This document shows positions 10,768 through 36,066 of a stretch of DNA of 39,107 nucleotides, piece after piece. The position numbers and the translations under genes are program-made. Origin of the DNA: Bacteroidota bacterium. GTDB lineage: Bacteria; Bacteroidota; Bacteroidia; M30B66. The DNA lies in assembly GCA_947460255.1 (NCBI GenBank), contig CANHIS010000025.1, positions 1 to 39,107 on the forward strand. The letters run 5' to 3'. Positions within the stretch are counted from its first letter, which is position 1, and each line of letters begins with the position of its first letter. The notes under the pieces are model-generated. The model was not told the DNA's origin. It was given only the letters and a program-made list of their open reading frames with translations, and did not search any database.

Positions 10768-10993
10768 TTTTGTTTGCTCTTGGTTAAATTTGAACTAGTG
10801 AAATCTGCATATAACAATTAGAATTCAATTATTGTCTTTATTGATAACAATACTATTATAATTATGAGTTCTTAATCGGCTGATATTTTGAATTGAATCA
10901 TACTTATTTAACAGCAATATAAACGTTATTTTTTTTAGTTTAAAGTGCGTATTTATTGTTTCCTTTCTTATCTTGCTGCCAACATTGTTAGAT

Positions 10994-12286
10994 ATGAAAA
11001 GAGCATTTTTGTTTTTCTTACTTTCTGTATTGAGTTTCCAACTTTCCTCACAATACATTGAGCGTTGCGGATATGAAATCCATAAACAGAATAGAATTAA
11101 TTCGGATTCAGATTATTCAACTAAAAGAAGTTTAATTGAGCAACAAATTTCCAATCATGCTGTAAACTCCTCTGTACGATCTTCTGAGATTTACCGAATT
11201 CCTGTTGTTATTCATGTGATCTATAACAATGAAACTCAAAATTTGTCAGATGACAAAATTCTTGAACAGTTAGATGTTTTGAACAATGATTTTGGAAGGT
11301 TGAATGAAGATACAATTAACACTAGAACTGAATTTCTTCCAGTTGCAGCATCTACCGGCATCGAGTTTTACCTTGCTCAATGGGATCCACAAGGAAATCC
11401 TACCTCTGGGATAACTAGGACTCAAACCAATCAAGCTTCATTCTTTAATCTGCAGTTTGATTTAAATCGAATGAAATCAGCATCAACGGGAGGAGTTGAT
11501 GCATGGGATGTAAATCAATACCTCAATATTTGGATTTGCAATCTTGCAATACCGATTATTAATACACCATTCATTCTTGGATTTGCAACTCCGCCTGAAG
11601 GAGCACCTAATTGGCCGTCAGGTTCAGCAGCAGAAGAAGCAAACTATGATGGAGTTGTTCTCCATTATGAAGTTGTAGGAGAGAATCCAAATGCAACTGG
11701 AGCATTAGCTTCTGTGAATAGAGGAAGAACAGCCACCCATGAGATTGGGCATTATCTGGGATTACGACATATTTGGGGAGATGCGCAAGGCCAAGATGGT
11801 TGTGAGGTTGATGATGGTATTGAAGATACTCCTAATTGCGCCGACGCTCAGCAGCAAACTTGCGATTTCAATTCAAATTCATGTTTAGATAGTCCTACTG
11901 ATTTTCCTGATCAAATTGAAAACTACATGGATTATTCAGATGAGAATTGCATGAACATGTTCACGATTCAACAGGCTAATGCTATGCGATTTGTCATCGA
12001 AAATTTCCGTCAAGATTTAATTTTAACGAACAGAGAACAGAATAATCTATCAAATTCAATCAAGTTGTTCCCTAATCCTACAGCCGATATTCTTCATTGG
12101 CAGGTTTTGAATTCAGCAAACATTGTCATTAATCAAATTCAAATTTTAAGTGTTGACGGAAGAATAGTCAGAATAATTTCCGATGGAAGTACAAGCATCA
12201 ATTTGATCGATCTTTCACCTGGAATCTACTGCATAAAGTTCCATGCTATCGGATTTGAGTCATCTTTAAGATTTCTTAAACTTTAG
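10994..12286 (+). CDS. Secreted M43 (pappalysin-like) zinc metallopeptidase with T9SS type A sorting domain
   Basis: The ATG at 10994 (MKRAFLFFLLSVLSFQLSS) is chosen because it opens a clean signal peptide; the frame extends upstream only to a TTG at 10973. The protein has 430 residues. A typical M43 propeptide-side segment (IPVVIHVIYNNE) near residue 65 is followed by the extended zinc site HEIGHYLGLRH near residue 249 (HExxHxxGxxH, catalytic Glu) and the Met-turn region ENYMDYSDENCMNMFT near 315. The last 75 residues are a type A T9SS sorting domain: LFPNPTADILHW, a VDGR turn, LSPGIYCIKF and the final FLKL. It is therefore predicted to be exported and possibly cell-surface anchored. It precedes the giant adhesin by 182 bases on the same strand. 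Substrates are unknown. Confidence 0.88.
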   Translation: MKRAFLFFLLSVLSFQLSSQYIERCGYEIHKQNRINSDSDYSTKRSLIEQQISNHAVNSSVRSSEIYRIPVVIHVIYNNETQNLSDDKILEQLDVLNNDFGRLNEDTINTRTEFLPVAASTGIEFYLAQWDPQGNPTSGITRTQTNQASFFNLQFDLNRMKSASTGGVDAWDVNQYLNIWICNLAIPIINTPFILGFATPPEGAPNWPSGSAAEEANYDGVVLHYEVVGENPNATGALASVNRGRTATHEIGHYLGLRHIWGDAQGQDGCEVDDGIEDTPNCADAQQQTCDFNSNSCLDSPTDFPDQIENYMDYSDENCMNMFTIQQANAMRFVIENFRQDLILTNREQNNLSNSIKLFPNPTADILHWQVLNSANIVINQIQILSVDGRIVRIISDGSTSINLIDLSPGIYCIKFHAIGFESSLRFLKL

Positions 12287-12437
12287 AAAAACCTAGATTT
12301 CACGACTCTTTACGCTGGTTAAATTGTTCACAAGTCTCGTTTTAATTATGTAACCTTTTGAAATATAAGATCTTATAACTGTTCATTTTTGCGTAAAATT
12401 GAATTGTAATTAGGTTTTTTTATCTCGCCAATCTGTT

Positions 12438-12445
12438 TATTTTTG
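12438..12445 (+). promoter_or_regulatory. Probable -7 element of the adhesin cassette promoter
   Basis: TATTTTTG matches TAnnTTTG exactly, 23 bases before the ATG at 12469, giving a short leader of about 18 bases. A related sequence, CATTTTTG, sits near 12384-12391 in the same spacer. No well-placed -33 TTG is seen; the region at the expected distance is a run of T. The 182-base spacer has no visible terminator for the upstream peptidase gene. Confidence 0.5.
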
Positions 12446-12468
12446 CCCGTCGCCTAAAACCACTTTGT

Positions 12469-15400
12469 ATGATACGAAGCTTTTACATTGCCTTATTCTC
12501 CGCTTTATTGATTGCTTGTTCGGTTAACACCCTAGCAGCTTCAAACAATAATGCTGGCCATAATGCGCCTGCCCTTGAAGAAGTGAGAGGAGGTGCAACC
12601 ATCACTACGCTCCCTGTTTCTGCAACATCCATTTGTGAAGGATCTGCAATTGTAATTGACTTTACAGCAACCGGAGCAACTTTTGATGTCGCCAACACTT
12701 TCACAGCCCAACTTTCAGATGCGGTTGGAAGCTTCAATACACCAATTGAAATTGGTTCAATTGTGCTAGGAGGAAATTCTATTCCGAGCAATACATATAT
12801 ATTCGGCGTTATTCCTTCCTCTGTTCCGCCTGGAACAGGATATAGAATCAGAGTTGTGTCTTCTTTGCCTATCGCTACGGGAACTGACAATGGAACAGAT
12901 ATCACAATCTCAAACTCTGTCGCACCTTCAGTTCCGTTTGTTTCTATTAATGGTCCAACCGATTTTTGTTTCGGTTCAGCAACTACCTTTTTAACTTCTA
13001 GTCAACCATCTAACAATCTTTGGTTTCCTGGTGGTACGAATACTAATCCTTTCATTGGTGTTGTTTCTTCGGGCTGTTATTATACTCAAGTAGTGGCTGG
13101 TAATGGTTGCCAAACAAATTCAGTTCCAATCTGTATAAATGTTAACACTCCAATTTTCACTTTTCTAGCTTATTTTGAGAACGGTGCTATCGCTTCTACT
13201 GCAGATACAACTGTAACCATCTGCGATGGTGACTCAGCCGAGATCGGAATTTTAATTGAAGGTGGTGTTGCGCCATTTGATATTTCTTATACATCAGATG
13301 GAATTGCAATTACTACAGTAGATAATGTAGGTGTGGAAATCAGTCCTAATACATATACATATAGTTTTTACACTACTCAACCGGGAATTTTCCAAACAAT
13401 TGGTGTTACAGATAACTTCCCTACCAACTGTGGTTCAAACGGAAGTTCTGGAACAGTAATCGTTCAAACAGCTCCACTCCCAGTTACTTCATTCTCCTAT
13501 GAACCATTTTGTGGCACTGAATCAGGTGCTCCTGTAGCTGCTCCAGGTTTCTTAGGTGGAGGTCTCTACTCTTTTGATCCACTTCCTTCTGATGGTGCAT
13601 TAATTAACCCAACTACTGGAGTTCTTTCATCAACGGTCATTGGAGCAACATATTCAGTTAAGTACTCTGTAAATGGCCCATTCTGTGAAGCAAATTCTAC
13701 AGTAACTGTTACAGTAGATTCTTCTGATATCGTCGCTTTCACAATTGATCCTTTCTGCTCAAGTAGTTCATCTTCTGCACCTATAACTGAGCCTGGTTTC
13801 GCTGGTGGTGGTGTTTACGGATTCTTTACTACTCCATCTGATCAAGCTACTATCAATGCAGTGAGTGGTATTATTTCAAATGCTTCTCCACTTACTTCAT
13901 ATAATATAGTATACACTTCACCTGCTGGAGCATGTCAGACTTCTGATTCAACTTCAGTTACAACATTGGATTCTCCAGTGTTAACTGGAACAGTAATCGA
14001 CAGCGAATGTGGTGAGTCTATTGGCTCTATCGACGTTTCAATATCTGCTGGAATCGCGCCTTACACGGTAAGTTGGTCAAATCTTGCAACCACAGAAGAT
14101 CTTTCTGGGCTTGCCGCTGGATCTTACACAATTACAGTAACTGATGCTCAGAACTGTGTAATAGATTCAGCATTTACGATTATCAACAGTAACCAACCGG
14201 AGCTTGTTTTTGATGTAACTGATGCTACTTGCGGTGCAACCAATGGAGCAATCAACCTAACTATAAACAATGGTGTTGGACCTTATGAGATTTTATGGAC
14301 GCCAGGAGACCTTACAACAGAAGATCTTTCTGCTCTTCCTGCTGGTACTTATTCTGTTGAAGTAACTGATTTAACTTCAACATGTGATGTCGCAGGTTCT
14401 GCAATTGTTAATTTTGAAGGAGCTCCTCAAGCAACATTTGTAGCTGAGAATTCTCTTTGTGGTCAATCTGTTGGCTCAATTGATTTAACAGTTACTGGCG
14501 GAACAAGCCCAATTATCCACAATTGGAGCAACGGTGAAACAACTGAAGACATCAATAACTTGGTAGCAGCAACTTATACTGACACCATTTCTGATGCAAA
14601 TGGTTGTTCAACTATCGTTTCTGTGAATATTATTAATGAAAACCAGTTCACTCTTTCTTCAACTGTTGTTAACCCAACTTGTGCAGATACTGCTAGTGGT
14701 TCAATTGATTTAACAGTTAACGGCGGTGACTCTCCTTTTAGCTTTAATTGGACACCGAACAATACCAATGTAACCGAAGATGTTACTGGTCTTTCAGCAG
14801 GTACTTACCAAGTAGTCGTTACTGATAACGCGGGTTGTATCGATTCTCTCTCTTCAACTATTCAAGCTCCACCTTCGCTTACTGCTACTGCTGTTATTAC
14901 TGATGCAGCATGCGGTCAAGCAATTGGAGTTATTAACGTTACAATTACTGGTGGTTCAGGAACATATAATTTCCTTTGGAGCACTGGAGCTGAAACTGAA
15001 GATATTTCAGGTTTAGCTGCTGGAGTTTATCAATTTGCTGTTTCTGATGATTCTGACAACTCTTGCAGCATCATCCAGTCATTCACAATCGTTAACGGTA
15101 ACGAGCCTGAACTTGTTCTTGCTTCAACTGCTACTTCTTGTGCTGCTAACACTGGAACAGTATCATTGCTAGTGAATGAAGGTTCTGGAGATTTTTCATA
15201 CGCATGGTCAGGTCCAAATGGATTTGTTTCATCAGTTGAAGATCTTACAGGTCTTGCGTCTGGAAGCTACATTATCACTTTAGTAGACAATTTGACTACC
15301 TGCGAAATCATCGATTCAATTTCTGTTGATCCAGCCAATTCTCCTCAAATAACAGCTGTAGTCGCTAATACAACATGCGGTCAAAACAACGGACTAATCG

Positions 15401-18400
15401 ATATCGAAATTGAAGGTGGAACAGAACCATTCGTAATTACATGGAATGGAGAAGTTTCAACTTTAGATCAAATTAATCTATCTGCAGGTAATTATTTACT
15501 TGAAATTACGGATGCCAATAATTGTCAGTTTGCTCAAACTTACACTATCGAGCCTAGTGTTGAACCAACATTAACTTCTGAGTTTTTAAACCCATCTTGT
15601 GGAAACGACACAGGTAGTGTTGATGTTACAATTATCAATGCTACCAATGCAGTGATTTACAATTGGACAAAAGACGGCGTTGCGTTTTCAACTTCTGAAG
15701 ACCTTCTAGCTTTAAGTCCAGCACAATACGTTCTAGTTGCGTCAGATGCAGCTGGTTGTGTATTAAGCGATACTTTCCTTTTGGTATATCAAAATCAGCC
15801 AACTCTTGCATTTACTGCAGAGCCAGCAGTTTGTGGAGAACCATCAGGATCGATTAATGTGACAGTATCTAGCGGTACAGCTCCTTTTGTTTATCAATGG
15901 ACTGGAGCTAATGGGTTTAATTCTTCTTCAGAGGATCTTACTGACTTAACGGGAGCTTGTTACGATCTAATCGTTACTGATTCATTAGCTTGTGTTGCTT
16001 CAATTCAAGCATGTGTGCCTTCATTCAATTCGCCGGTAATCAACTCTACTGTTACTCAGCCTTCATGTGGTGAGGCAAATGGTTCAATTGCGCCAATAGT
16101 TTCTGGTGGTTTAGCACCTTATACTTTTGAATGGTCAGGAACATCGTTTTCTGTTGACAGCTTGTTCGATAACCTTGGTGAGGGAACTTACTTTTTAAGT
16201 CTTACAGATGCCAATGGTTGTGTATCAAATGATACAGTTACCTTAATTAATTCTGGTATCCCTGTATTAACAGCAAATATTGACGATCCAGAATGTGGAA
16301 CTAATGATGGTGTTATTACTGTTGCAGTAACTGGTGGTACGGCTCCATATTCATATTTGTGGACTCCAGGCGGTTCTACTGATGCCACTATTTCAAATCT
16401 TGCAATTGGTACATATAGTGTTCAAGTTACTGACGCTTCTGGATGTATCGCCTCAGGTCAATATTCTTTGGTTAACCTCAATGGTCCTTCTATTGAATCT
16501 TCAGTTACAAGTGCTCTATGTGGGGAAAGTACTGGAGGTATAAACATCACTGTTACTGAAGGTTCTGGCGATTATTCATACAATTGGACTGGAAATGATG
16601 TTGTTGCTAATTCTGAAGATCAAACTAATTTATCTTCAGGTGCTTATATTGTTCTTGTTACAGATATTACTAGTGGATGTCAGGCTACTTCCACAATTCA
16701 AATTGAAAACAGTAATCTTCCAATTTTAAATCTTGTCTCTGTTGGTACCTTGTGCGGAGCTAATTCTGGATCTGTGCAGTTAACAGTTACTAATGCTGTT
16801 AATCCTACTTTTAGTTGGGTTGGTCCAGACGGATTCACATCTACAAGTGAAGACATCAGCAACTTAAATATTGGTGTCTACACTGTTACCGTTTCTGATG
16901 GAAATTGTGAGGTTACCGGATCTGTTACTGTGAGCCCAACAAAATCAGTTTGGAGCCAGAATGTAAACATCATTGCTGGAAGCCAATACAACTTCCAAAT
17001 GTTCGCTCAAAATGTAGTTGCAAATTCTCCTGCTCAATTGAGAGTTTTTGTAGGAGCTAATAATTTGGGTTTAATTACACCAACAGGATTAGCTACTTGG
17101 AGCCAATTCAATGGATCCTTTACAGCTACAACATCTGGTTTAACAGAGGTTAAAATTGTGAATCAGAATTTATCGCCTTCTGGAAATGACTTTGGTATAG
17201 ATGATATTAGCTTGATTGAAGTTTGTCCTCCAGTACCTCCAATCGGTTCTAATTGCGGTAACAACATTATAGTGAATGGTGATTTTGAAGCTGGCAATTC
17301 AAGTTTCTTATCTCAATATACTTTTGTTGCTAATGGAGCTCCAAATAATGAACTTATTCCTGAGGGACTTTACAGTGTTGCACCAAGCGGAAATGCTGTT
17401 CATCCGCAATTTTTGGGTACAGGCCGTTCAGGTAATTTCATGATCGTTAATGGTAATGAGCCTGAGAATCCTGTTTTAAGTTTTAGTACAGTTGGCGCTT
17501 CTTGTAGCGTAAACAATGGTTCGATTAACTTGACAGTTACGAATTTTACGGTACCTATTTCTTATCAGTGGGCTGGTCCAAATAACTTTAGTGCTACAAC
17601 CCAAGATATTTCTGGTTTAGCACCGGGGCTTTACACTGTTACAGTAAATAGTGGAGCTTGTAGCCAAGTAGGTTCTGCAACTGTAGGTTTCTCTAATCTG
17701 CCTACGGTAGCTTTTACTGCAGTTCCTGCAGATTGTGGATCCGACAATGGAAGTGTTGACTTAACTCTTTCAAATACTACTAACCCAACAATATCATGGG
17801 TTGGGCCAAATGGATTTGTTTCTTCATCTGAAGATCTTGTAAATCTTGAAGAAGGTTCTTATATCGTAACTGTCACAGATGCCTCTTGTATCGTTAGTGA
17901 TACAGTTGATGTGACAACCAATGAACCCCTTGTGGCGTTTGCTGTTGTTCCAACTTCTTGCACAGCTCCAATTGGTTCAATTGATTTGACGATTACAAAT
18001 GCTATCGCTCCTTCTGTAAGTTGGGTTGGTCCTAATGGGTTTACAGCATCTACTCAAGACATCTCCGACTTAGTAGAAGGTACGTATACGGTTACTGTAA
18101 CTGATGGAGAGTGTGTGGTTGTTGATTCTGTGGAACTTATTTCTAATGCTCCTGTTTTAGCGCTTAGTTCAACTCCTTCAACATGCGGGACATCTAATGG
18201 CTCAGTTAATTTAATCATTACAAATGGTGTACTTCCTATTGTTAACTGGGTTGGTCCAAACGGGTTCACATCCACATCAGAGGATCTTTTGTTAGTAGCT
18301 TCTGGAGTGTATTCTGTTATTGTAACTGATGGTGATTGTGTTGTAGAAGATTCGATCGAAGTTATTACAGATGAGCCCGTTTTAGTTTTGAATGCCGTTC

Positions 18401-21400
18401 CTACAGTTTGTGGAACTTCTACAGGATCTATTGATCTCACAGTTACTAATTCAGATAGTCCGGTTTATAGTTGGAGTGGGCCCAATGGCTTTACAGCATC
18501 CACGGAAGATATCACTGGATTATCAGCTGGAACATATACTGTTATAGTAACTGATGGTATTTGTACTGTTGAAGATTCTATCGAGGTTACAGAAACAGGA
18601 AGTTCAATACTTGCAACACTTACCTCTGTAGGAACTTCATGCGGACTTTGCAATGGTTCAGCAGAAGTAACAATTACATCTGGTCAAGCACCATTTACTT
18701 TTGAATGGTCGAGTGGAGAATCGGTTTTCAACCCTAGTTCCCTTTGTTCAGGTGATGCAATAGTTACAATTACTGACGCAGGAGGATGTACTTCAGATTT
18801 TTCTGTAAGCATTTCTGCATCAGTAGCACCAACAATTTCATTTACACAAGAAGGATCAACTTGCGGAGCTTCAACAGGTTCAATTGATTTAACTGTTGCT
18901 GATGGTCAATCTCCATATTCATATACATGGACTGGTCCTAACGGCTTTACAGCAACTACTGAAGATATTTCTAATATTGAGGCAGGTAGTTATACTGTTG
19001 AAGTTTTAGATGCTTCACTTTGTTCAGTTAGTGAAACAATTACAATTTCCAACACCAATTCTCCAATACTTTCCTTTATTGCAACCAACGCAAATTGTGG
19101 AGAAAGCATTGGTGCGATTGATTTGGTTCTAGAAAACACAACTGCGCCAACTTTCGTTTGGACTGGTCCTAACGCATTCACAGCAATCACTGAAGATATT
19201 ACTGGGTTGGCATCTGGAACATACGAAGTAACTGTAACTGACGGACTTTGTATTGTTTCTGGAACTCAGGAAATTACTAATTTGGATGGCCCAACGGCAA
19301 GTTTGTCAGCGTCAATTGATACATTGTGTAATGGATCAAATTCAATACTTACATTTGAATTTACTGGTGGAGCGCCTTACACGTTTACTTACACGGACGG
19401 AATTTTACCTGTAACGGTAAACTCCTTCAATGGACCGACCTTTACAGCAACAGTAAGTCCATCGTCGAATACCACTTACAGTCTTACATCAATTGTTTCA
19501 GATGTAAACCCTACTTGTCTTGGAAGCATTAGTAATGGTTCTGTAAGCATTGTAGTTAATTCTACACCTCCACAACCAACAATTACTGCGAGTGGTTCAC
19601 TTATTTTCTGTGAAGGTGGTTCAGTAACTTTAACTTCGAGCAGTCAGGTTAACAATTTTTGGAATATCACCGGACTTGACCAATTCAATCAAGCTATTAC
19701 CGTTACAACTTCTGGTGCTTATTCTGTAGCTGTTGTTAATGATTTTGGTTGCGCCGATACATCTGAATCAATTGTTGTTGAAGTTCTTCCTGCTGATCAA
19801 ATTTCAGCTAACAATGACACTACAGTATGTGCAGGGTCTGTGCTTCAGTTCAATGCATCTGGAGGCACCAACTATGTATGGTCACCTTCAATTTACCTAA
19901 GTGGAACAATAATCGCGAACCCAGTTTGTATTCCATTTGAAACTACTACATATGTAGTAACAGGTTCAAGTACATGTGGCTCAGGTTCAGATACAATTGT
20001 TGTAACAGTTAATCCAATTGTTGATACAGACCTCGGGGAAGATATTACAGTGTGTCAGAATGAAACATTAGTTCTTTCAGTTGAAAATGTGGCTGGAGCT
20101 TCTTACTTATGGGGACCAGCTGAAGCAATTATAGGGTCAAACAGCTCAGCTTCAGCATCTATCAATACTTCAATTTCAACTGAGGTGTATGTACAAACTA
20201 CAAACACAAATGGTTGTGTATTTTCTGACACAATTCAAGTAAGCATCACTTTGTCAAATCAAACTTTCAACATTACTGCGAATGGCCCAACAACATTCTG
20301 CGAAGGTGAAAGTTTGGTACTTCAAGCTAGTACTGGAAATCTTGTAAATTGGAGTAATGGCTTACAGAATTTTGATCAGATTCTTGTTACAGAGTCGGGT
20401 AGTTATTCGGCTGTTTTCTCAGGAGGAAATTGTCCAGCATTTTCCGATACAATTGAAGTTACAGTTATTCCAGCTCCAGCTATTGATATCCTCGCGCAAG
20501 GTTCAACAACCATCTGCGACGGAAGCTGTGTAACATTAAATGCTTCTGAAACTGCAAATATCACTTGGACTTCTCCAGATGGGTCTACTTCTACAAACGC
20601 TTCACTTCAAGCTTGTGATAACGGGTGGTATTTCCTATCTCGAATTGAAAATGGCTGCACTGGAATAGACTCTATTCTTATTTCTGTAGCTCCTGCTTTG
20701 GTTATTCCTTCAATAACACTTGATGGTTCTAATGTTCTTTGTGATGGACAGACCACTGCAACTTTAACAAGCAGCTACGCATTAGGTAACCAGTGGTTCT
20801 TGAATGGTGACCCAATAGCAGGAGCAACAAGTAACTCTATTGAGGTATCAGCTGCAGGAAGTTATACTGTTGTTGTTACTAGCCCAGAAGGCTGCACAGC
20901 AATATCAATTGCACAAGGTATAACCGTTAAACCGGTCGTTCCTATTGATGTAACAGCAGCTGATACGGTTGTTTGTAATGATGAAGTTGTTAATATTCAA
21001 CTTTCAGCTACAGGAGGATTTGTAAGTTACTTCTGGGATGTAACCGGAGAAACTACATCTTCAATTACTGCTATTAACACAGGTATCTTTACCGTAACAG
21101 GTACCACTGCAGATGGTTGTGTATCTAACGCTTCAATTCAAATTATCAATAATTCACCATTTGAATTGAATTTGTTTAGCCCGATTTTCTTCGACGATTT
21201 TAACGTTTCTGCGCAAGGTGCTGAAGACGGTTCGATCGATCTTTCAGTCTTTGGTGGCTCAGGTGTATTTACTTATGATTGGTCAAATGGTGGAACTACC
21301 TCAGATCTTTCTGGCCTTTCTGGAGGAGTTTATTCGGTAACTGTTGCTGATGAACAAGGTTGTACCGTTTCTGACTCAATTAATTTGAAAGAGCCTGAAG

Positions 21401-21672
21401 CTATAAAGTTACCAAATGGATTTACTCCGAATGGTGATGGCTTTAATGATTTCTACGTAATTAAAGGAATTCAAGGCTACCCAGGAAATAAAGTAAATAT
21501 CTTTAACCGCTGGGGTAACTTAGTATTCAGCGCACAAGACTACCAGAATAATTGGGGTGGAGTGAGCAATGATGGTAACCTTCTGCCGGATGGTACGTAT
21601 TTCATCGTCGTTGATCTAAATAAAGAAGGAACCGACAACGTTGAAAATTACATTGACCTTAGAAGAAATTAA
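12469..21672 (+). CDS. Giant SprB-repeat cell-surface adhesin with T9SS type B sorting domain
   Basis: A 3067-residue SprB-like surface protein. A signal peptide spans about residues 1-24 (MIRSFYIALFSALLIACS, then NTLAA). The N-terminal region to about residue 510 holds Ig-like segments, including two related copies with PFC...PGF.GGG. Residues 512-1492 and 1666-2271 are arrays of SprB-type repeats (CG..xGSIDLTVTGG...PY.Y.W...TEDLSGL.AG.Y.VTVTD..GC). I count 21 here plus one more just before the C-terminus. Between the arrays, residues 1493-1665 form a domain with reversed halves (separate entry). Residues 2272-2899 are further Ig/PKD-like domains with FCEG cores. The end, from about 2979, is a type B sorting domain: LPNGFTPNGDGFNDFY, VNIFNRWGNLVFS, LPDGTYFIVVDL. 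SprF and PorE-like genes follow, matching known adhesin-SprF-anchor cassettes. In Flavobacterium, SprB is moved along the cell by the gliding motor; a motility or adhesion role is inferred here. Confidence 0.9.
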   Translation: MIRSFYIALFSALLIACSVNTLAASNNNAGHNAPALEEVRGGATITTLPVSATSICEGSAIVIDFTATGATFDVANTFTAQLSDAVGSFNTPIEIGSIVLGGNSIPSNTYIFGVIPSSVPPGTGYRIRVVSSLPIATGTDNGTDITISNSVAPSVPFVSINGPTDFCFGSATTFLTSSQPSNNLWFPGGTNTNPFIGVVSSGCYYTQVVAGNGCQTNSVPICINVNTPIFTFLAYFENGAIASTADTTVTICDGDSAEIGILIEGGVAPFDISYTSDGIAITTVDNVGVEISPNTYTYSFYTTQPGIFQTIGVTDNFPTNCGSNGSSGTVIVQTAPLPVTSFSYEPFCGTESGAPVAAPGFLGGGLYSFDPLPSDGALINPTTGVLSSTVIGATYSVKYSVNGPFCEANSTVTVTVDSSDIVAFTIDPFCSSSSSSAPITEPGFAGGGVYGFFTTPSDQATINAVSGIISNASPLTSYNIVYTSPAGACQTSDSTSVTTLDSPVLTGTVIDSECGESIGSIDVSISAGIAPYTVSWSNLATTEDLSGLAAGSYTITVTDAQNCVIDSAFTIINSNQPELVFDVTDATCGATNGAINLTINNGVGPYEILWTPGDLTTEDLSALPAGTYSVEVTDLTSTCDVAGSAIVNFEGAPQATFVAENSLCGQSVGSIDLTVTGGTSPIIHNWSNGETTEDINNLVAATYTDTISDANGCSTIVSVNIINENQFTLSSTVVNPTCADTASGSIDLTVNGGDSPFSFNWTPNNTNVTEDVTGLSAGTYQVVVTDNAGCIDSLSSTIQAPPSLTATAVITDAACGQAIGVINVTITGGSGTYNFLWSTGAETEDISGLAAGVYQFAVSDDSDNSCSIIQSFTIVNGNEPELVLASTATSCAANTGTVSLLVNEGSGDFSYAWSGPNGFVSSVEDLTGLASGSYIITLVDNLTTCEIIDSISVDPANSPQITAVVANTTCGQNNGLIDIEIEGGTEPFVITWNGEVSTLDQINLSAGNYLLEITDANNCQFAQTYTIEPSVEPTLTSEFLNPSCGNDTGSVDVTIINATNAVIYNWTKDGVAFSTSEDLLALSPAQYVLVASDAAGCVLSDTFLLVYQNQPTLAFTAEPAVCGEPSGSINVTVSSGTAPFVYQWTGANGFNSSSEDLTDLTGACYDLIVTDSLACVASIQACVPSFNSPVINSTVTQPSCGEANGSIAPIVSGGLAPYTFEWSGTSFSVDSLFDNLGEGTYFLSLTDANGCVSNDTVTLINSGIPVLTANIDDPECGTNDGVITVAVTGGTAPYSYLWTPGGSTDATISNLAIGTYSVQVTDASGCIASGQYSLVNLNGPSIESSVTSALCGESTGGINITVTEGSGDYSYNWTGNDVVANSEDQTNLSSGAYIVLVTDITSGCQATSTIQIENSNLPILNLVSVGTLCGANSGSVQLTVTNAVNPTFSWVGPDGFTSTSEDISNLNIGVYTVTVSDGNCEVTGSVTVSPTKSVWSQNVNIIAGSQYNFQMFAQNVVANSPAQLRVFVGANNLGLITPTGLATWSQFNGSFTATTSGLTEVKIVNQNLSPSGNDFGIDDISLIEVCPPVPPIGSNCGNNIIVNGDFEAGNSSFLSQYTFVANGAPNNELIPEGLYSVAPSGNAVHPQFLGTGRSGNFMIVNGNEPENPVLSFSTVGASCSVNNGSINLTVTNFTVPISYQWAGPNNFSATTQDISGLAPGLYTVTVNSGACSQVGSATVGFSNLPTVAFTAVPADCGSDNGSVDLTLSNTTNPTISWVGPNGFVSSSEDLVNLEEGSYIVTVTDASCIVSDTVDVTTNEPLVAFAVVPTSCTAPIGSIDLTITNAIAPSVSWVGPNGFTASTQDISDLVEGTYTVTVTDGECVVVDSVELISNAPVLALSSTPSTCGTSNGSVNLIITNGVLPIVNWVGPNGFTSTSEDLLLVASGVYSVIVTDGDCVVEDSIEVITDEPVLVLNAVPTVCGTSTGSIDLTVTNSDSPVYSWSGPNGFTASTEDITGLSAGTYTVIVTDGICTVEDSIEVTETGSSILATLTSVGTSCGLCNGSAEVTITSGQAPFTFEWSSGESVFNPSSLCSGDAIVTITDAGGCTSDFSVSISASVAPTISFTQEGSTCGASTGSIDLTVADGQSPYSYTWTGPNGFTATTEDISNIEAGSYTVEVLDASLCSVSETITISNTNSPILSFIATNANCGESIGAIDLVLENTTAPTFVWTGPNAFTAITEDITGLASGTYEVTVTDGLCIVSGTQEITNLDGPTASLSASIDTLCNGSNSILTFEFTGGAPYTFTYTDGILPVTVNSFNGPTFTATVSPSSNTTYSLTSIVSDVNPTCLGSISNGSVSIVVNSTPPQPTITASGSLIFCEGGSVTLTSSSQVNNFWNITGLDQFNQAITVTTSGAYSVAVVNDFGCADTSESIVVEVLPADQISANNDTTVCAGSVLQFNASGGTNYVWSPSIYLSGTIIANPVCIPFETTTYVVTGSSTCGSGSDTIVVTVNPIVDTDLGEDITVCQNETLVLSVENVAGASYLWGPAEAIIGSNSSASASINTSISTEVYVQTTNTNGCVFSDTIQVSITLSNQTFNITANGPTTFCEGESLVLQASTGNLVNWSNGLQNFDQILVTESGSYSAVFSGGNCPAFSDTIEVTVIPAPAIDILAQGSTTICDGSCVTLNASETANITWTSPDGSTSTNASLQACDNGWYFLSRIENGCTGIDSILISVAPALVIPSITLDGSNVLCDGQTTATLTSSYALGNQWFLNGDPIAGATSNSIEVSAAGSYTVVVTSPEGCTAISIAQGITVKPVVPIDVTAADTVVCNDEVVNIQLSATGGFVSYFWDVTGETTSSITAINTGIFTVTGTTADGCVSNASIQIINNSPFELNLFSPIFFDDFNVSAQGAEDGSIDLSVFGGSGVFTYDWSNGGTTSDLSGLSGGVYSVTVADEQGCTVSDSINLKEPEAIKLPNGFTPNGDGFNDFYVIKGIQGYPGNKVNIFNRWGNLVFSAQDYQNNWGGVSNDGNLLPDGTYFIVVDLNKEGTDNVENYIDLRRN
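14002..16944 (+). repeat. SprB repeat array, block 1 (about 13 units)
   Basis: Thirteen units of roughly 75 residues, each beginning near an x-C-G motif and a G-S-I-D/N-x-T-V strand, then a W core, the T-E-D-L/I motif and Y.V.VTD..GC. At DNA level several units share stretches such as GGTTCAATTGATTTAACAG (14474 and 14699 regions). Each unit carries two Cys (start and end), consistent with one disulfide per unit. The units are diverged enough to be old copies rather than a recent expansion. Confidence 0.85.
16945..17463 (+). other. Jelly-roll-like domain with halves in reversed order (apparent circular permutation)
   Basis: Seen: the first part runs SVWSQNVNIIAGSQYNF to GNDFGIDDISLIEV (16945-17223), and the second runs CGNNIIVNGDFEAGNSSF to SGNFMIVNGNEP (17254-17463). 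Known: in related Bacteroidota surface proteins the order is the opposite, with VNGDFxxG...GxxMxVNG first, then VWCQTV.V.P.T.Y.F...GNDFGIDDI, forming one carbohydrate-binding-like beta-sandwich. Here the second half comes first and a CPPVPPIGSN linker joins the natural ends. Inference: a genuine circular permutation, or a rearrangement inside the repeats. Confidence 0.65.
17464..19280 (+). repeat. SprB repeat array, block 2 (about 8 units)
   Basis: Eight further SprB-type units. Most belong to a subtype with W-V/T/S-G-P-N-G-F-T/V followed by STSEDI or TTEDI, which is also found in a few units of block 1 (near 15200 and 16820). Spacing is shorter than in block 1, close to 70 residues. Two Cys per unit are retained. 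One unit (near 18640, TSCGLCNGS) has an extra Cys and lacks the TEDL motif. Confidence 0.8.
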
Positions 21673-21707: not shown

Positions 21708-22625
21708 ATGAAGAGAATAGCTACAGTGATCGGTATGCTGATCTTCTCCATCTTCGCAAATGCGCAGCAGGAGTTACAGGTCAGTCAGTACATGTTCAAC
21801 GGACTGTTCCTGAATCCGGCTTATGCCGGTACCCATCCTTACTGGAGCGGTACAGCCTTGCACCGCCAGCAATGGCTAGGATTCTCAGGTCGTCCTTGGT
21901 CTACAACAGTTGCAGTTGATGGTCCTATCAAGGACAAAAACATGGGTTTAGGCTTCATGATTATTAATGATAACATTGGTTTAACTACTAATAACGATAT
22001 TTCTGCTGCCTATTCCTACAGAATTAAAGTGTCTGAAGGATCAGAGCTTGCGCTCGGACTTCGTGCTGGTATCAGAAATACAATGTTTAACGTAAGTAAA
22101 CTTGAGAACATCCCTGACGCAGGAGACCCACTTTACAATGCAAACGAAAGTGTTTGGGTTCCAAAGTTTGATTTTGGAGCATATTGGTATGGCGATCGTG
22201 GATATTTAGGTTTATCTGTACCCAATATCTTGGCTATTGATTCTAGGAAATCAGACAATTCAGATGCTGGTCTTCGTCGCCATTTTTTCCTTAATGGTGG
22301 TTATGTTTGGGACGTAAACAAATCAGGTTCTGTGAAGTTTAAACCTTCTTTCTTAGTGAAATATGAGCCTTCTGCTCCTGTTTCATTTGATTTAAATGCA
22401 CACTTCCTATTTAATGATCGTGTTTGGTTAGGAACATCCTACCGTTATAATTCAGCAGTAGTATTCATGGCTGAATATCAGATTACTGAAAAATTAAGAG
22501 CAGGTTTCGCTTTCGATGCAACTACTTCTGCAATTCGTCAGTATCAAAACGGCACTTTGGAATTTATGCTGGGTTATGATTTCACTCAGAAACTAGTAAA
22601 AATTAAACACCCACGTTATTTCTAA
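21708..22625 (+). CDS. sprF: SprF/PorP family outer membrane protein, adhesin partner
   Basis: A 305-residue PorP/SprF-type outer membrane beta-barrel. The signal peptide (MKRIATVIGMLIFSIFANAQ) ends in the usual A-Q site. The family start is intact: QVSQYMFNGLFLNPAYAGTH, then HRQQWLGFSGRPWST and KNMGLGFMIINDNIGLT. The end is LEFMLGYDFTQK followed by a short tail KIKHPRYF. Known members are needed for secretion and surface attachment of type B sorting-domain proteins such as SprB. It lies 35 bases after the giant adhesin and 22 bases before the OmpA-like gene, so the three form a cassette and probably one transcript. The first 200 bases are clearly richer in G+C than the rest (30, 30 and 35 G+C per 60 in the three lines 21721-21900, against 17 of 60 at 21961-22020), which suggests mosaic origin. 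The sprF name reflects family and context, not orthology. Confidence 0.88.
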   Translation: MKRIATVIGMLIFSIFANAQQELQVSQYMFNGLFLNPAYAGTHPYWSGTALHRQQWLGFSGRPWSTTVAVDGPIKDKNMGLGFMIINDNIGLTTNNDISAAYSYRIKVSEGSELALGLRAGIRNTMFNVSKLENIPDAGDPLYNANESVWVPKFDFGAYWYGDRGYLGLSVPNILAIDSRKSDNSDAGLRRHFFLNGGYVWDVNKSGSVKFKPSFLVKYEPSAPVSFDLNAHFLFNDRVWLGTSYRYNSAVVFMAEYQITEKLRAGFAFDATTSAIRQYQNGTLEFMLGYDFTQKLVKIKHPRYF

Positions 22626-26856: not shown

Positions 26857-28998
26857 ATGATGAAACATTTTACGTTCAAGTTGTTATCAGGTGCGCTAAT
26901 CATACTAGCAAACCCCATTTCAGCTCAAAAAGCCAAACCTGCTTTTCAACCATGTGGCACGCAGGAAATAATGGAATCCGATATGCAAAAGCATCCTGAA
27001 TTAAGGACGCAGTATAACGATTTCATGAAACAATTAAGTCATGTTAAAACTTCAAATGTATCTAGCAGTCGAGCTGAAAAAAGGATCATTCCAGTAGTTT
27101 TTCACGTGATTCATCAATGTGGGCCAGAAAACATTTCTAAGGCGCAGATTCTTGATCAGTTGAGAACGCTAAATGATGACTTCGCAAAACTCAACGAAAC
27201 AATCAATCAAACTCCTGAATGTCATGCTGCTGTTGCTGCGGATTGCAATATTGAATTCCGTTTAGCTACAAAAGACGACCAAGGAAATTGCACAGATGGA
27301 ATTGTAAGAGTAGCATCTACTAAAACCTATGAAGCCAACAACGACAATGGTGTTAAAAGTGTTAGTCGTTGGAATTCTGACAAATATTTGAATGTTTGGG
27401 TAGTTAACTCTATCGGAAGCGTTCAAGGTACAGGTGGAGAGGTTCTTGGATATGCACAATTTCCAGCAGGTGGCCTTCTTTCTACAGATGGTATCGTACT
27501 TCGTTATGATTGTGTTGGTTCTATTGGGGCTGCTCAAACTGGTCCATTTGCACCAAGATTCGGTCGTACAATGACGCATGAAATTGGCCACTGGTTAGGT
27601 CTTCGCCACATTTGGGGAGATGCAGATTGTGGAAGCGACGGAGTAGATGATACCCCAATTGCACAAGAGCCTAATTACGGTATTTGCTGGAGCGATTTTC
27701 CTTATCACTTGCTAACTTGCACATCAGATTCTCTAGACGAATGCGGTGAAATGTTTATGAATTACATGGATTACTCTGATGATCAATGTATGAGTATGTT
27801 CACAGAAGGTCAGAAAGCAATCATGGATGCGACACTTGAATCATTCCGTTTTACCATATCAAGCGAAGCAAATCTAATCGCTACCGGAACACGCGATGAA
27901 GACATTGCAAACCTAGTTGTTTGTAATCCTGTTGCTGATTTTTGCGATAACAGAAGATTAGTTTGTGCTGGTAGCAATGTAACTTTCGAAGATGCTACAT
28001 TCAATACTGAAACTTATACTAGAAATTGGAGTTTTGAAGGTGGGACTCCAGCAACCTCAACTGCTGTTTCTCCAACTGTTTCTTATGATGTTGCTGGTAC
28101 ATATGATGTAAGTTTAACTTCTACTTCATCAGCTGGAGACAACACTAAGACTAAAACAGAGCATGTTATTGTAAGCCCTGATGCAGCTGTTTATGGACAA
28201 GGACCATTTGAAGAGAATTTTGAGAATGCAAATACGATGAATGATTTTGTGATTTTCAACAATGATGGATCAAATGCTAAATGGGAATATACAACCCAAG
28301 GTGGTTTCGGCTCAACCCGTTCTGTGAGAATCAGAAACTTCCTTAATACAGCAACTGAGTCAGATGACTTAATTACGCCATCTTACAACTTAACAACTGT
28401 GAATTCACCTAGCCTTCTTTTTAGAGTGGCATGTGCAGAAAGAGGAGGAGAGCCAACTGATCAATTGAAAGTTTATTTTTCTTCCAATTGCGGCCAAACA
28501 TGGGGTTCGCCAAGAATTATCAATTTTGCTGATTTCAATACTGCAGGATTGTACACAAGTGAATTCGTTCCTACCAATGATTCTCAATGGAAAACATTCG
28601 CATTTTCAATGTCATCTCTAGCAACTCAGGAAAATGTAAGAATTCGCTTTGAGTATGTAGCAGGTACAGGTGACCGTGCAAACAATCTTTACTTAGACGA
28701 TATCAACATTGGTACTGCTTTGGGCGTTAATGACTTAGGATACGATTTAGGATTATCTGTTTTCCCAAATCCAACCAACGATCAAACGAATTTAGTGTTT
28801 GAATCTCCTAAGCCTTCGACTATAGCAATTAGTGTATTTGATATTCTTGGACAGCAAGTTACATCTGTATTTAACGGAAATGTTGGTTCGGGAGCTCAGA
28901 ATTTCTCAATTAACATGAGCGATTTGAGTGCAGGTCTTTACACAATTCGCTTAGACGTTGATGGTACAAGCATTTATCGCAAAGTGATCAAGAAATAA
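26857..28998 (+). CDS. Secreted M43 zinc metallopeptidase with PKD and MAM-like domains and T9SS type A sorting domain
   Basis: A 713-residue exported peptidase. The signal peptide is MMKHFTFKLLSGALIILANPISAQ. The peptidase domain spans about 65-340: IPVVFHVIHQCGPE, the zinc site HEIGHWLGLRH near residue 240 (HExxHxxGxxH) and the Met-turn NYMDYSDDQCMSMFT near 308. A PKD-like domain covers about 365-445 (VCAGSNVTFEDAT, SPTVSYDVAGTYDVSL). A MAM-like or 'choice-of-anchor' beta-sandwich follows near 450-625 (FEENFENANTMNDF to NNLYLDDINIG). The end is a type A sorting domain: LSVFPNPTNDQTNLVF, FDILGQQV, LSAGLYTIRL, VIKK. It shares catalytic architecture with the peptidase at 10994 but has extra domains. 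It is a single-gene unit bounded by a strong terminator. Confidence 0.9.
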   Translation: MMKHFTFKLLSGALIILANPISAQKAKPAFQPCGTQEIMESDMQKHPELRTQYNDFMKQLSHVKTSNVSSSRAEKRIIPVVFHVIHQCGPENISKAQILDQLRTLNDDFAKLNETINQTPECHAAVAADCNIEFRLATKDDQGNCTDGIVRVASTKTYEANNDNGVKSVSRWNSDKYLNVWVVNSIGSVQGTGGEVLGYAQFPAGGLLSTDGIVLRYDCVGSIGAAQTGPFAPRFGRTMTHEIGHWLGLRHIWGDADCGSDGVDDTPIAQEPNYGICWSDFPYHLLTCTSDSLDECGEMFMNYMDYSDDQCMSMFTEGQKAIMDATLESFRFTISSEANLIATGTRDEDIANLVVCNPVADFCDNRRLVCAGSNVTFEDATFNTETYTRNWSFEGGTPATSTAVSPTVSYDVAGTYDVSLTSTSSAGDNTKTKTEHVIVSPDAAVYGQGPFEENFENANTMNDFVIFNNDGSNAKWEYTTQGGFGSTRSVRIRNFLNTATESDDLITPSYNLTTVNSPSLLFRVACAERGGEPTDQLKVYFSSNCGQTWGSPRIINFADFNTAGLYTSEFVPTNDSQWKTFAFSMSSLATQENVRIRFEYVAGTGDRANNLYLDDINIGTALGVNDLGYDLGLSVFPNPTNDQTNLVFESPKPSTIAISVFDILGQQVTSVFNGNVGSGAQNFSINMSDLSAGLYTIRLDVDGTSIYRKVIKK

Positions 28999-32883: not shown

Positions 32884-33405
32884 ATGATCTTAAAATATTT
32901 AATTGTTTCATCACTGTTGATTTGTTTCATATCCTGTGGCCAGAAAAATAGACCGCAAAATGAAATGAAAATGCCTTCCCAAGAAGAATCTATTCAAGCA
33001 GGAAAGGCTATGGCCAAGCAAGAAGATACCGAGATAAACGCCTACATCAAAAGATACAATTTGGTCATGGAAAGAACCGGAACAGGCTTGAGATATAAGA
33101 TTTTAAACGAAGGTGTTGGTGTTAATGCGTCTACTGGGATGAAGGCAACAGTGAAATTTAAAACTTCATTGTTAGATGGAACTGTCTGTTATTCATCTGA
33201 TTCTACAGGAAATGAAACATTTGTTGTAGACCGCGATAACGTAGAAAGTGGGCTTCATGAAGGTATTAAGAAGCTCTCAAAAGGAGGAATAGCCAAATTT
33301 ATTTTACCTTCGCACCTTGCGCATGGCCTCACCGGCGACAACAATAGAATTCCGGCAAGAAGTCCTGTAGTGTATGACATTGAATTGATTGATTTAAAAG
33401 AATGA
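32884..33405 (+). CDS. GldI-like FKBP-type lipoprotein, active site degenerate
   Basis: A 173-residue lipoprotein. The signal ILKYLIVSSLLICFISCGQKN has a Cys at residue 19 preceded by F-I-S, a usable lipobox. A charged linker leads to one FKBP domain from about residue 60: GLRYKILNEGVG, then ATVKFKTSLLDGTVCYSS, then GLHEGIKKLSKGG and PARSPVVYDIELID. The fold is clear but key FKBP residues are changed: the Y of HYTG is F/K, FDSS is CYSS, GWDEG is GLHEG (core Trp lost) and AYG is AHG. It may therefore bind rather than isomerise. Flavobacterium GldI, needed for gliding, is an FKBP-type lipoprotein of similar size, and the position next to nrnA fits, but orthology is not proven. The stop overlaps the next start (ATGA). 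Confidence 0.8.
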   Translation: MILKYLIVSSLLICFISCGQKNRPQNEMKMPSQEESIQAGKAMAKQEDTEINAYIKRYNLVMERTGTGLRYKILNEGVGVNASTGMKATVKFKTSLLDGTVCYSSDSTGNETFVVDRDNVESGLHEGIKKLSKGGIAKFILPSHLAHGLTGDNNRIPARSPVVYDIELIDLKE

Positions 33406-34343
33406 CAAAGACAAAATTGAATTTGAAAAACCTAATTCTTGCAAGTGCAGGATTGTTTTTATTGAGTGCTTGTATGAAATCCCGTCATGAAGGGTTTGAA
33501 GAAAGCGAAACTGGATTGTATTATGCAATTCACAAAGAAAGCGGAGCAACCAAAACTCCAAAAGAAGGAGATATCTTATTTTGCAAGATGAAGCTTTTTG
33601 TGAAAGGTGGAGAGGGCAAAGAAGATTCTTTACTTTATAATTCTGATGAAGCACCAGATTTCCCAGGTGGAATTAAATTTATTCAACTCGTGAAGCCCGA
33701 ATATGCAGGAGACTTAATGGAGGGTGTGGCAAAATTGCATATCGGAGATTCGGCATCTTTTATTGTTTCAGCAGATTCGTTTTTTATCGTTTCCAATAAA
33801 TTGGACAAGCTTCCTGCTGGCATTAAAGCAGGTTCTGAATTGCTTTTTCACTTCGGTGTGAAGGATATTAAATCAAAAGACGAAACAATTAAAATGATTT
33901 CTGAAATGCAGGCCAAAAGTTCAGGAATGGATAAAGCCCGCATGGATCAGTTACAAGCCAGTGAGGCAGAAGATTTACGTTTGTATCTAGAAAGAAAAAA
34001 AATCACAGCCAAACCTAACCCAAGCGGATTGATCTTCATTCAAACCGAAAAAGGAAACGGGCAGAAACCAAAGGTTGGCCAAAAAGTTACGCTCAACTAT
34101 AGCGGATACTTGCTGAATGGTAAGAAGTTCGATTCAAGTTTCGACCGTGGAACTCCATTCGAGTTTACACTCGGAAAAGGCGAAGTAATCGCTGGTTGGG
34201 ACGAAGGTGTAGCTATGATGAATGTTGGCGGAACTGCCACCTTCGTGATACCATCTGTGTTAGGATATGGTTCAAATGGGGCTGGAGATATTCCACCGTT
34301 TGCTCCTTTAGTTTTCGAAGTACAATTGTTAAAAGCAGAATAA
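33402..34343 (+). CDS. FKBP-type peptidyl-prolyl isomerase lipoprotein, two-domain
   Basis: A 313-residue envelope lipoprotein; the signal [16 protein letters not shown] has the lipobox L-S-A-C. Residues 30-165 are a degenerate FKBP-like domain ([43 protein letters not shown]) without the catalytic aromatic set. A charged helical linker near 165-200 leads to a canonical FKBP domain at 205-313: [54 protein letters not shown]. All core FKBP12 positions (Tyr, Phe, Asp, Val-Ile, Trp, Tyr, Ile, Phe) are kept, so isomerase activity is likely. It starts inside the stop codon of the preceding gene (4-base overlap), and the next gene has the same domain plan, so tandem duplication is likely. Confidence 0.88.
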
Positions 34344-34351
34344 CCAACAGC

Positions 34352-35263
34352 ATGAAGATTCTTCCATTTGCATTAGCCGCAATTATTAGCTCAACGGCCT
34401 GCGCTCAGCAATTTATTGATGCACCATCGAACAAGGATTTTAAAACCATGCCCAATGGCATTTTATACAGATCCGTTAAAAAAGGCCCGAACAAAGAAAC
34501 TGCTGTAGAAGGCGATTTTTTAAAATTGAACCTCAGCTATTATATGCATCGAGGAGGAAAAAAGGATTCCTTGATTTTTACTTCTCAAAATCTGCCTGAT
34601 AAATTTGTACAAGTAGGTGTTGTTAAACCTATTTACAAAGGCGATTTAATGGAAGGAATGTTCTTCATGGCCCAAGGAGATAGCGCACAATTCATTGTTC
34701 CTGCAGATTCATTTCTATTAAAATCGGCAGGATCTCGCGGTATTCCAGAAGGAATTAAAAAAGACGACAAGTTCTTATTCAGTATCAGTTTGGTGGAAAG
34801 AACTCCAAAAGCAGTTTTCGAAGAGAAACAAAAACAGGCTAACGCCAAAAAAGAAGCAGAAATGAGTCAAAAGAGTTTTGATGAAAAAGCGAAGCGCGAT
34901 GAGTATTTGAAAGCAAATAACATCACACAAGCTCCAAACCCCTCTGGTTTGATTGCGATTATTTCTCAAGAAGGAGCTGGCGCCAAACCTACCACTGGAC
35001 AAAAAGTTACTGTACACTATACTGGTTATTTGTTGGATGGAACAAAGTTCGATTCTAGCGTTGATAGAGGCCAACCATTCTCATTTACCATTGGAAAAGG
35101 TCAGGTAATTCAAGGTTGGGACGAAGGCATTGCGTTGCTGAGCCCTGGTGCTAAAGCGAAACTCATTATCCCATCTTCCATCGGTTATGGTGGAAGAAAT
35201 ATGGGAAGCATTCCGCCATTTTCCACTTTGGTTTTTGATGTTGAATTGCTTAAAGTTGAATAA
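34352..35263 (+). CDS. FKBP-type peptidyl-prolyl isomerase, two-domain, exported
   Basis: The ATG at 34352 ([19 protein letters not shown]) opens a proper signal peptide 8 bases after the previous stop; the frame is open further upstream to 34196 but that part overlaps the preceding gene in another frame. The protein has 303 residues. The A-C-A-Q end allows signal peptidase I cleavage; the Cys has a poor lipobox (S-T-A-C), so soluble periplasmic location is as likely as lipidation. The plan repeats its neighbour: a degenerate N-terminal domain ([30 protein letters not shown]), a charged coiled-coil-like linker rich in K, E and Q near 150-195, and a canonical FKBP domain ([49 protein letters not shown]). 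Confidence 0.88.
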
Positions 35264-35271
35264 AATTAATT

Positions 35272-36066
35272 ATGAAAAATCTTCTATACCTTATTATTCT
35301 TATCGCTGTAAATCAATCATCTGCTCAAGTTGTAAAACTTAAAGTGAATGAGGAATTTGTAACCTCAAACAACATAAAAATCCAACTCACCAAGCAAGGG
35401 AAAGGTAAGTCATTAAATAAGGGAGACAAAGTTAAGGTTCATTACAAAGGCTATTTGGTTGATGGTCGTGTTTTCGATAGCTCGTTGGAGCGAAATCAAC
35501 CTTTTGAGTTTGTTCTCGGAATGAATCAAGTTATAGCTGGATGGGATCAATCGTTTCTTTTTCTCAAAGTGGGTGATCAGGCTAAAATTACAATTCCACC
35601 TGATTTTGGTTACGGCGACACACCAATGCCTAAAATTCCGGCTGGATCATACTTGGTTTTCGATGTAGAAATTATCGAAGTATTCAAAGATTTTGCTCCA
35701 AAGCAATTTACAACCAAAGGCAAAAAAATCCTCACATCACCGAGCGGCCTTCAGTATTGTGTGCTCAAGCAAGGCGAAGGTGCAAAAGCAGAAAAGGGAA
35801 AAACTGTTGAAGTGCACTACACTGGTTTCCTTGAAAATGGCGACATCTTCGATTCTTCTGTGCTGAAAGGGCAACCGATATCCTTTCGACTGGGCGCAGG
35901 TATGGTGATTTCTGGATGGGACGAAGGAATTGCAAATTTAAACGCAGGCGGCATGGCGCTACTTTCTATCCCATATGAATTGGCCTATGGAGAATCCGGC
36001 AGACCTCCATTAATTCCGCCAATGGCACGATTGATTTTTAATGTTGAATTGATCAGCGTAAAATAA
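35272..36066 (+). CDS. Tandem FKBP-domain peptidyl-prolyl isomerase, exported
   Basis: A 264-residue protein with signal peptide MKNLLYLIILIAVNQSSAQ and two full FKBP domains. Domain 1 (about 30-140): VKVHYKGYLVDGRVFDSS, QVIAGWDQS, PPDFGYG, IPAGSYLVFDVEII. Domain 2 (about 155-264): VEVHYTGFLENGDIFDSS, MVISGWDEG, ELAYGESG, IPPMARLIFNVELI. Unlike its two neighbours, both domains keep the core aromatic residues, with only small changes (SFL after WDQ in domain 1). There is no lipobox, so it should be soluble in the periplasm. It is the last of four consecutive FKBP genes, 8 bases after the previous one. It ends 2 bases from the convergent HPt gene with no terminator between. Confidence 0.9.
   Translation: MKNLLYLIILIAVNQSSAQVVKLKVNEEFVTSNNIKIQLTKQGKGKSLNKGDKVKVHYKGYLVDGRVFDSSLERNQPFEFVLGMNQVIAGWDQSFLFLKVGDQAKITIPPDFGYGDTPMPKIPAGSYLVFDVEIIEVFKDFAPKQFTTKGKKILTSPSGLQYCVLKQGEGAKAEKGKTVEVHYTGFLENGDIFDSSVLKGQPISFRLGAGMVISGWDEGIANLNAGGMALLSIPYELAYGESGRPPLIPPMARLIFNVELISVK

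Follow-up and report, generated by a model that had tools for sequence, protein, structure and literature searches.

A probable circularly permuted CBM_4_9-like domain between SprB repeats of a giant type IX-secreted adhesin

The stretch of DNA analysed here (the window, 39,107 nucleotides) is contig 25 of a draft genome of a Bacteroidota bacterium, G000, which consists of 246 contigs. It carries an open frame at 12403-21672, in which the open reading frame proper starts at 12469 and encodes a giant adhesin. The gene, its neighbour and the segments of the adhesin discussed below are the following.

12469-21672, + strand: giant adhesin open reading frame, 3067 aa, with SprB repeats, an Ig-like region and a CHU_C/type B T9SS sorting domain
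16717-16935, + strand: R1, complete SprB-type repeat directly 5' of the module, from repeat segmentation (identity 0.92 to G001 and 0.78 to G002)
16936-17226, + strand: H2 (VWSQ...GNDFGIDDISLIEVC), corresponding to profile positions 71-167 at the C-terminal side of the normal domain, first in the module
17227-17253, + strand: linker PPVPPIGSN, nine residues between two Cys, which connects the former C terminus to the former N terminus
17254-17466, + strand: H1 (CGNNIIVNGDFE...GNFMIVNGNEPE), corresponding to profile positions 1-71 at the N-terminal side of the normal domain, second in the module
17467-17697, + strand: R2, SprB-type repeat directly 3' of the module (identity 0.94 to G001 and 0.78 to G002)
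17698-18603, + strand: R3-R6, repeats of the R2 subtype, within a block missing from the orthologues in G004, G006 and G008
21708-22625, + strand: PorP/SprF-family gene, immediately 3' of the adhesin open reading frame

PorP/SprF proteins are the usual partners of type B T9SS adhesins. The window's adhesin has SprB repeats, a C-terminus of the CHU_C/TIGR04131 type and an adjoining PorP/SprF gene, and shares these features with the SprB-repeat T9SS adhesins that have such a partner. Retention of type B T9SS proteins with PorP-like partners at the cell surface is described in PMC9143113. A permuted domain within an SprB array was not found in a small set of papers searched. Elsewhere in the window, two peptidases of the M43 type (10973-12286 and 26857-28998), both carrying a T9SS sorting tail, flank the adhesin, SprF and OmpA genes, and a row of three FKBP-type isomerase genes occupies 33402-36066.

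The module between R1 and R2 was compared with a reference profile of 167 positions made from eight normally ordered copies of the domain. It matched positions 72-167 (124.6 bits) followed by positions 1-70 (97.2 bits), with a hinge at about 71/72, whereas the comparators from the same genome, G000:C33 and G000:C86, showed the normal order. All positions of the normal domain were present once, with nothing lost or doubled, and the module rotated in silico was recognized as a single domain over profile positions 1-167 with 229.7 bits. Judged from these profile comparisons, chance is excluded as the source of the match with reversed halves. H2 reads VWSQNVNIIAG...GNDFGIDDISLIEV at about 16936-17226, and the end of H1 runs into the following SprB linker. 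Since complete SprB-type repeats stand on either side, with no H1 before H2 and no H2 after H1, the module is not part of a tandem; the protein gave no other match to the domain. A sequence-only reading of this DNA had proposed that the halves are complete but reversed and that they represent a circular permutation seated between two SprB repeats, and both proposals agree with these results. It had also described a proline-containing linker of ten residues; the prolines were confirmed, and the length is nine residues between the Cys. Both Cys are kept in all four permuted copies known to us, and an equivalent linker, C-PVPP-C, is found in the tandem protein G002:C170 described below. No donor for the block R2-R6 closer than the adhesin gene itself was found elsewhere in the genome.

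The same reversed order, with the same junctions and SprB context, was observed in G001 (CAMCXT010000006; 92% amino acid identity), and two reversed modules between SprB repeats were observed in G002 (CANMGM010000028; 79% and 71-72% identity). G001 and G002 are separate assemblies with different isolate names and belong to the same genus as the window genome. An assembly error or chimera, for which a repetitive gene in a fragmented draft of 246 contigs gives some ground, is excluded for all practical purposes because the identical order and junctions recur in these two assemblies of other samples. The G001 record (CAMCXT010000006.1) is a metagenome assembly labelled Chitinophaga pinensis that was grouped in the window's genus, and the label looks doubtful. 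In G002 (locus L042) the two modules lie approximately 2.1 kb apart, the repeat-module-repeat unit being duplicated within the SprB array like a cassette.

The frequency of the permuted order was examined by searches of relatives, the class and the phylum (60, 395 and 395 genomes, overlapping) and by the use of a rotated profile of diverse members; in the larger searches the best eight candidates per genome were scored and part of the matches were opened. The rotated profile gave matches in at least 92 of the 395 class genomes. Among the matches listed, part of which were opened, four permuted places were detected, and the permuted order is rare in the domain family at this coverage. Spanning matches in G002:C170, G117 and G232 were considered as permuted copies and rejected, since each proved on inspection to be a tandem of two normal domains. 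The partial spans in G099, G131, G161, G190, G006, G021 and G049 were each a single normal copy, accompanied in G161 by an extra weak H1-like match. The remaining opened copies were normal, with a short second H1-like match at some loci. A search of a plasmid collection gave no match. The normal-order domain is widespread in class genomes and was also seen in a PEP-CTERM protein and on viral contigs (L146, L149, L150).

No Pfam or NCBIfam model passed by the tested normal-order members was found. The CBM_4_9 profile (PF02018) gave 12.1-15.3 bits with the module and its near relatives, below the gathering cut-off of 25.9 bits, and weak matches in 8 of 8 wider members, the first at 18.1 bits and thus also below that cut-off. 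Since the Pfam match is weak and below cut-off, we call the domain CBM_4_9-like and do not assign it to the family; from the profile scores, the normal-order domain apparently represents an unmodelled CBM_4_9-like family. The domain has in common with CBM_4_9 and with CBM4/16/22 the weak profile match, an N-terminal NGxFExG-type motif and, from the predicted structure of the module, the same general fold, and the module differs from them in its permuted order and in a profile score under the cut-off.

The right end of the module (IVNGNEPE) had been reported to match an inter-repeat linker near 15084 in 25 of 29 bases, and this count is exact (15081-15110). The route for recombination that the match was thought to offer is weak, because the linker reads VVNGNQPDV in G002, where the module end is conserved, and because IVNGN belongs to the domain itself, as the conserved end of one of its strands. 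The equivalent 30-mer scores 23/30, the best match of a random 30-mer elsewhere in the gene being typically 18-19/30, and about one in ten random 30-mers of the adhesin gene also reach 23/30. The resemblance is therefore not exceptional in this repetitive gene, and the linker is disfavoured as a recombination site. The same match and the same repetitiveness could be taken to suggest a phase-variable, reversible switch between normal and permuted order. However, the permuted order alone was found in all three species, inverted repeats looked for in 14000-19600 were absent, and a return to the normal order would require hinge sequence that has been lost; such a switch is unsupported and hardly credible. 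Natural evolution, phase variation and assembly error had all been left standing by the sequence-only reading, and of these it is a natural circular permutation that our results favour.

The four permuted copies formed one clade (support 98/96), which was also recovered from the single halves (83/84 with H1, 100/99 with H2). For the module, dN/dS was 0.08 in the comparison with G001 and 0.06-0.10 in that with G002, which is close to saturation at synonymous sites; for the flanking repeats it was 0.13-0.16. The module is under purifying selection, tighter than that on the flanking repeats. Between G000 and G002, R1, the module and R2 were the best conserved parts (0.78 each), compared with 0.33-0.65 elsewhere, where the alignment is partly incomplete. 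Full-length orthologues of the adhesin in G004, G006 and G008 are without the module; they have one ordinary repeat at the place taken in G000 by repeat 1, the module and repeats 2-6. The downstream SprF shares 88% identity with its counterpart in G002 (over 196 aa) and 83% with those in G003 and G004, and most SprB repeats likewise place G002 closer than G004 to G000. Both observations fit acquisition of the module once, before G000, G001 and G002 diverged. The N-terminal region of the adhesin (12469-14100) shows the opposite of SprF and SprB repeats 1-10, with 68% identity to G004 (L092) and 54% to G002 (L042); recombination or acceleration in G002 is a possible explanation for this conflict.

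Structure prediction with AlphaFold2 on a first alignment of four near-identical permuted rows gave a pLDDT of 49 and was set aside. With a deeper alignment of 12 rows, which added half-rows of four relatives from viral contigs (L145, L146, L149, L150), a single beta-sandwich was obtained with a pLDDT of 79 and a pTM of 0.80; the other four models of this run reached 62-64. The model has seven strands in H2 and a confident linker region, and the strands of H1 are less certain. Since the other rows are half-rows, the pairing of H1 with H2 is tied solely by the four near-identical permuted rows. The permuted module is predicted to fold as one jelly-roll-like beta-sandwich, and not as two separate domains.

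Structural matches of the model were to sugar-binding modules and included the PbXyn10C CBM (Z 10.0, 124 residues, 3.1 Å) and the C-terminal domain of EclA (Z 8.6), with PDB 4mgq as the top match, and CBM4, 16, 22, 36 and 60 near Z 6, with PDB 2xhh and 2xfd among them. Related xylanases are described as carrying ordinary inserted CBM4s (PMC7848910, PMC5041131). Alignment with VIA-align to CBM4/16/22 gave Z 5.6-6.5 over 86-96 residues, a level near 6 which alone may reflect a common arrangement. In these alignments model residues 7-102 (H2) corresponded to the C-terminal portion of the target chain, as expected if H1 had moved. Searches of PDB sequences gave no true relative; a dehydrogenase and designed Scone proteins came up, and these matches were judged to be chance.

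If the origin is a trimmed tandem, as is probable, the module could also be what remains of two truncated domains, its halves failing to make up a single fold and being tolerated as a spacer. We regard this as very improbable: selection constrains the module more tightly than the flanking repeats, the domain is present in full, both linker Cys are kept in all permuted copies, and the prediction of a single domain is confident. A domain swap, in which H2 and H1 would pair with the halves of neighbouring molecules or copies, is improbable to a lesser degree. Two copies do occur in one chain of G002, and half-rows are blind to whether pairing is within or between chains, but the linker is of only nine residues flanked by Cys, G000 has a single copy, and the pTM of 0.80 was obtained for the monomer.

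The protein G002:C170 (L043) is a tandem of the order H1-H2-C-PVPP-C-H1-H2. The inner H2-linker-H1 segment gave an uninterrupted alignment of 173 aa to the module (58%), and of the two H1 parts the second is nearer to that of the module (63%) than the first (50%). In the full tree this tandem did not group as the nearest neighbour of the permuted clade, and a tandem as a close relative of the module was found in G002 only. Tandem copies of the domain in its normal order are present in two or more lineages (L043 in G002:C170, L049/L111 in G117:C27 and L138 in G232:C143), which means that the precursor of a permutation recurs. The duplication model of circular permutation predicts a tandem intermediate (PMC3320104), and the domain order of G002:C170 is suggestive of the intermediate expected under that model. 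The normal domain would have been duplicated into an H1-H2-H1-H2 tandem, from which H2-linker-H1 would have entered the repeat array in the last ancestor shared by G000, G001 and G002. The old N and C termini would then be joined by the proline-rich linker flanked by Cys, and the new termini would fall where the VNGN/VWSQ turn used to be, the whole being inserted between two SprB repeats. The same permuted domain could have arisen from an excised circle of one H1-H2-linker unit that integrated at a VNGN-like SprB linker, and the right end of the module, IVNGNEPE, is indeed an H1 strand end and an SprB linker at once. However, no copy of VNGN is kept at the left junction and the likeness of the linker does not extend to G002, and we consider integration of a circle unlikely, though not negligible. 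Trimming of a tandem and integration of a circle would give a near-identical end product. The explanation that we favour as a whole, with good though incomplete confidence, is a complete CBM_4_9-like domain, circularly permuted within the SprB array of a type IX-secreted adhesin and derived from a tandem.

Circular permutation of carbohydrate-binding beta-sandwiches has a precedent in CBM36 and CBM60, which Montanier et al. 2010 (JBC 285:31742) reportedly related in this way (PDB 2xhh, 2xfd), and the kind of event is therefore already known. The resemblance of the module to CBM36 and CBM60 observed here is one of fold. The permutation of CBM36 and CBM60 divides two families, whereas that in the window falls within one family and one genus, in the repeat array of an adhesin, and its normal, tandem, permuted and empty states can all still be found. 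For many natural circular permutations, a distant pair of structures is all that is known. The saposin/swaposin case likewise involves a permuted domain placed in another protein and the duplication model with its tandem intermediate (PMC3320104), but concerns a helical domain of plant aspartic proteases and not a bacterial beta-sandwich. The novelty here lies in this particular case, in how young it is and in the survival of its stages.

In the adhesin stalk, the most likely role of the module is that of a ligand-binding unit, and its ligand is perhaps a glycan. The domain might bind a glycan on a surface or in solution, and the moved chain entry points might re-set it on the stalk with another face outward. 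That the permutation is very recent, with all stages extant, and that it was kept by selection as a cassette and favoured for re-seating the binding domain in the stalk is a tentative proposal, to which we give rather less than even credence. The ancestral site, the normal domain, the tandem and the permuted form all occur within one bacterial genus, so that naturally occurring sequences lend themselves to tests of the duplication model and of any selective advantage of moved termini. Annotation that relies on the order of domain parts may miss complete domains in giant adhesins.
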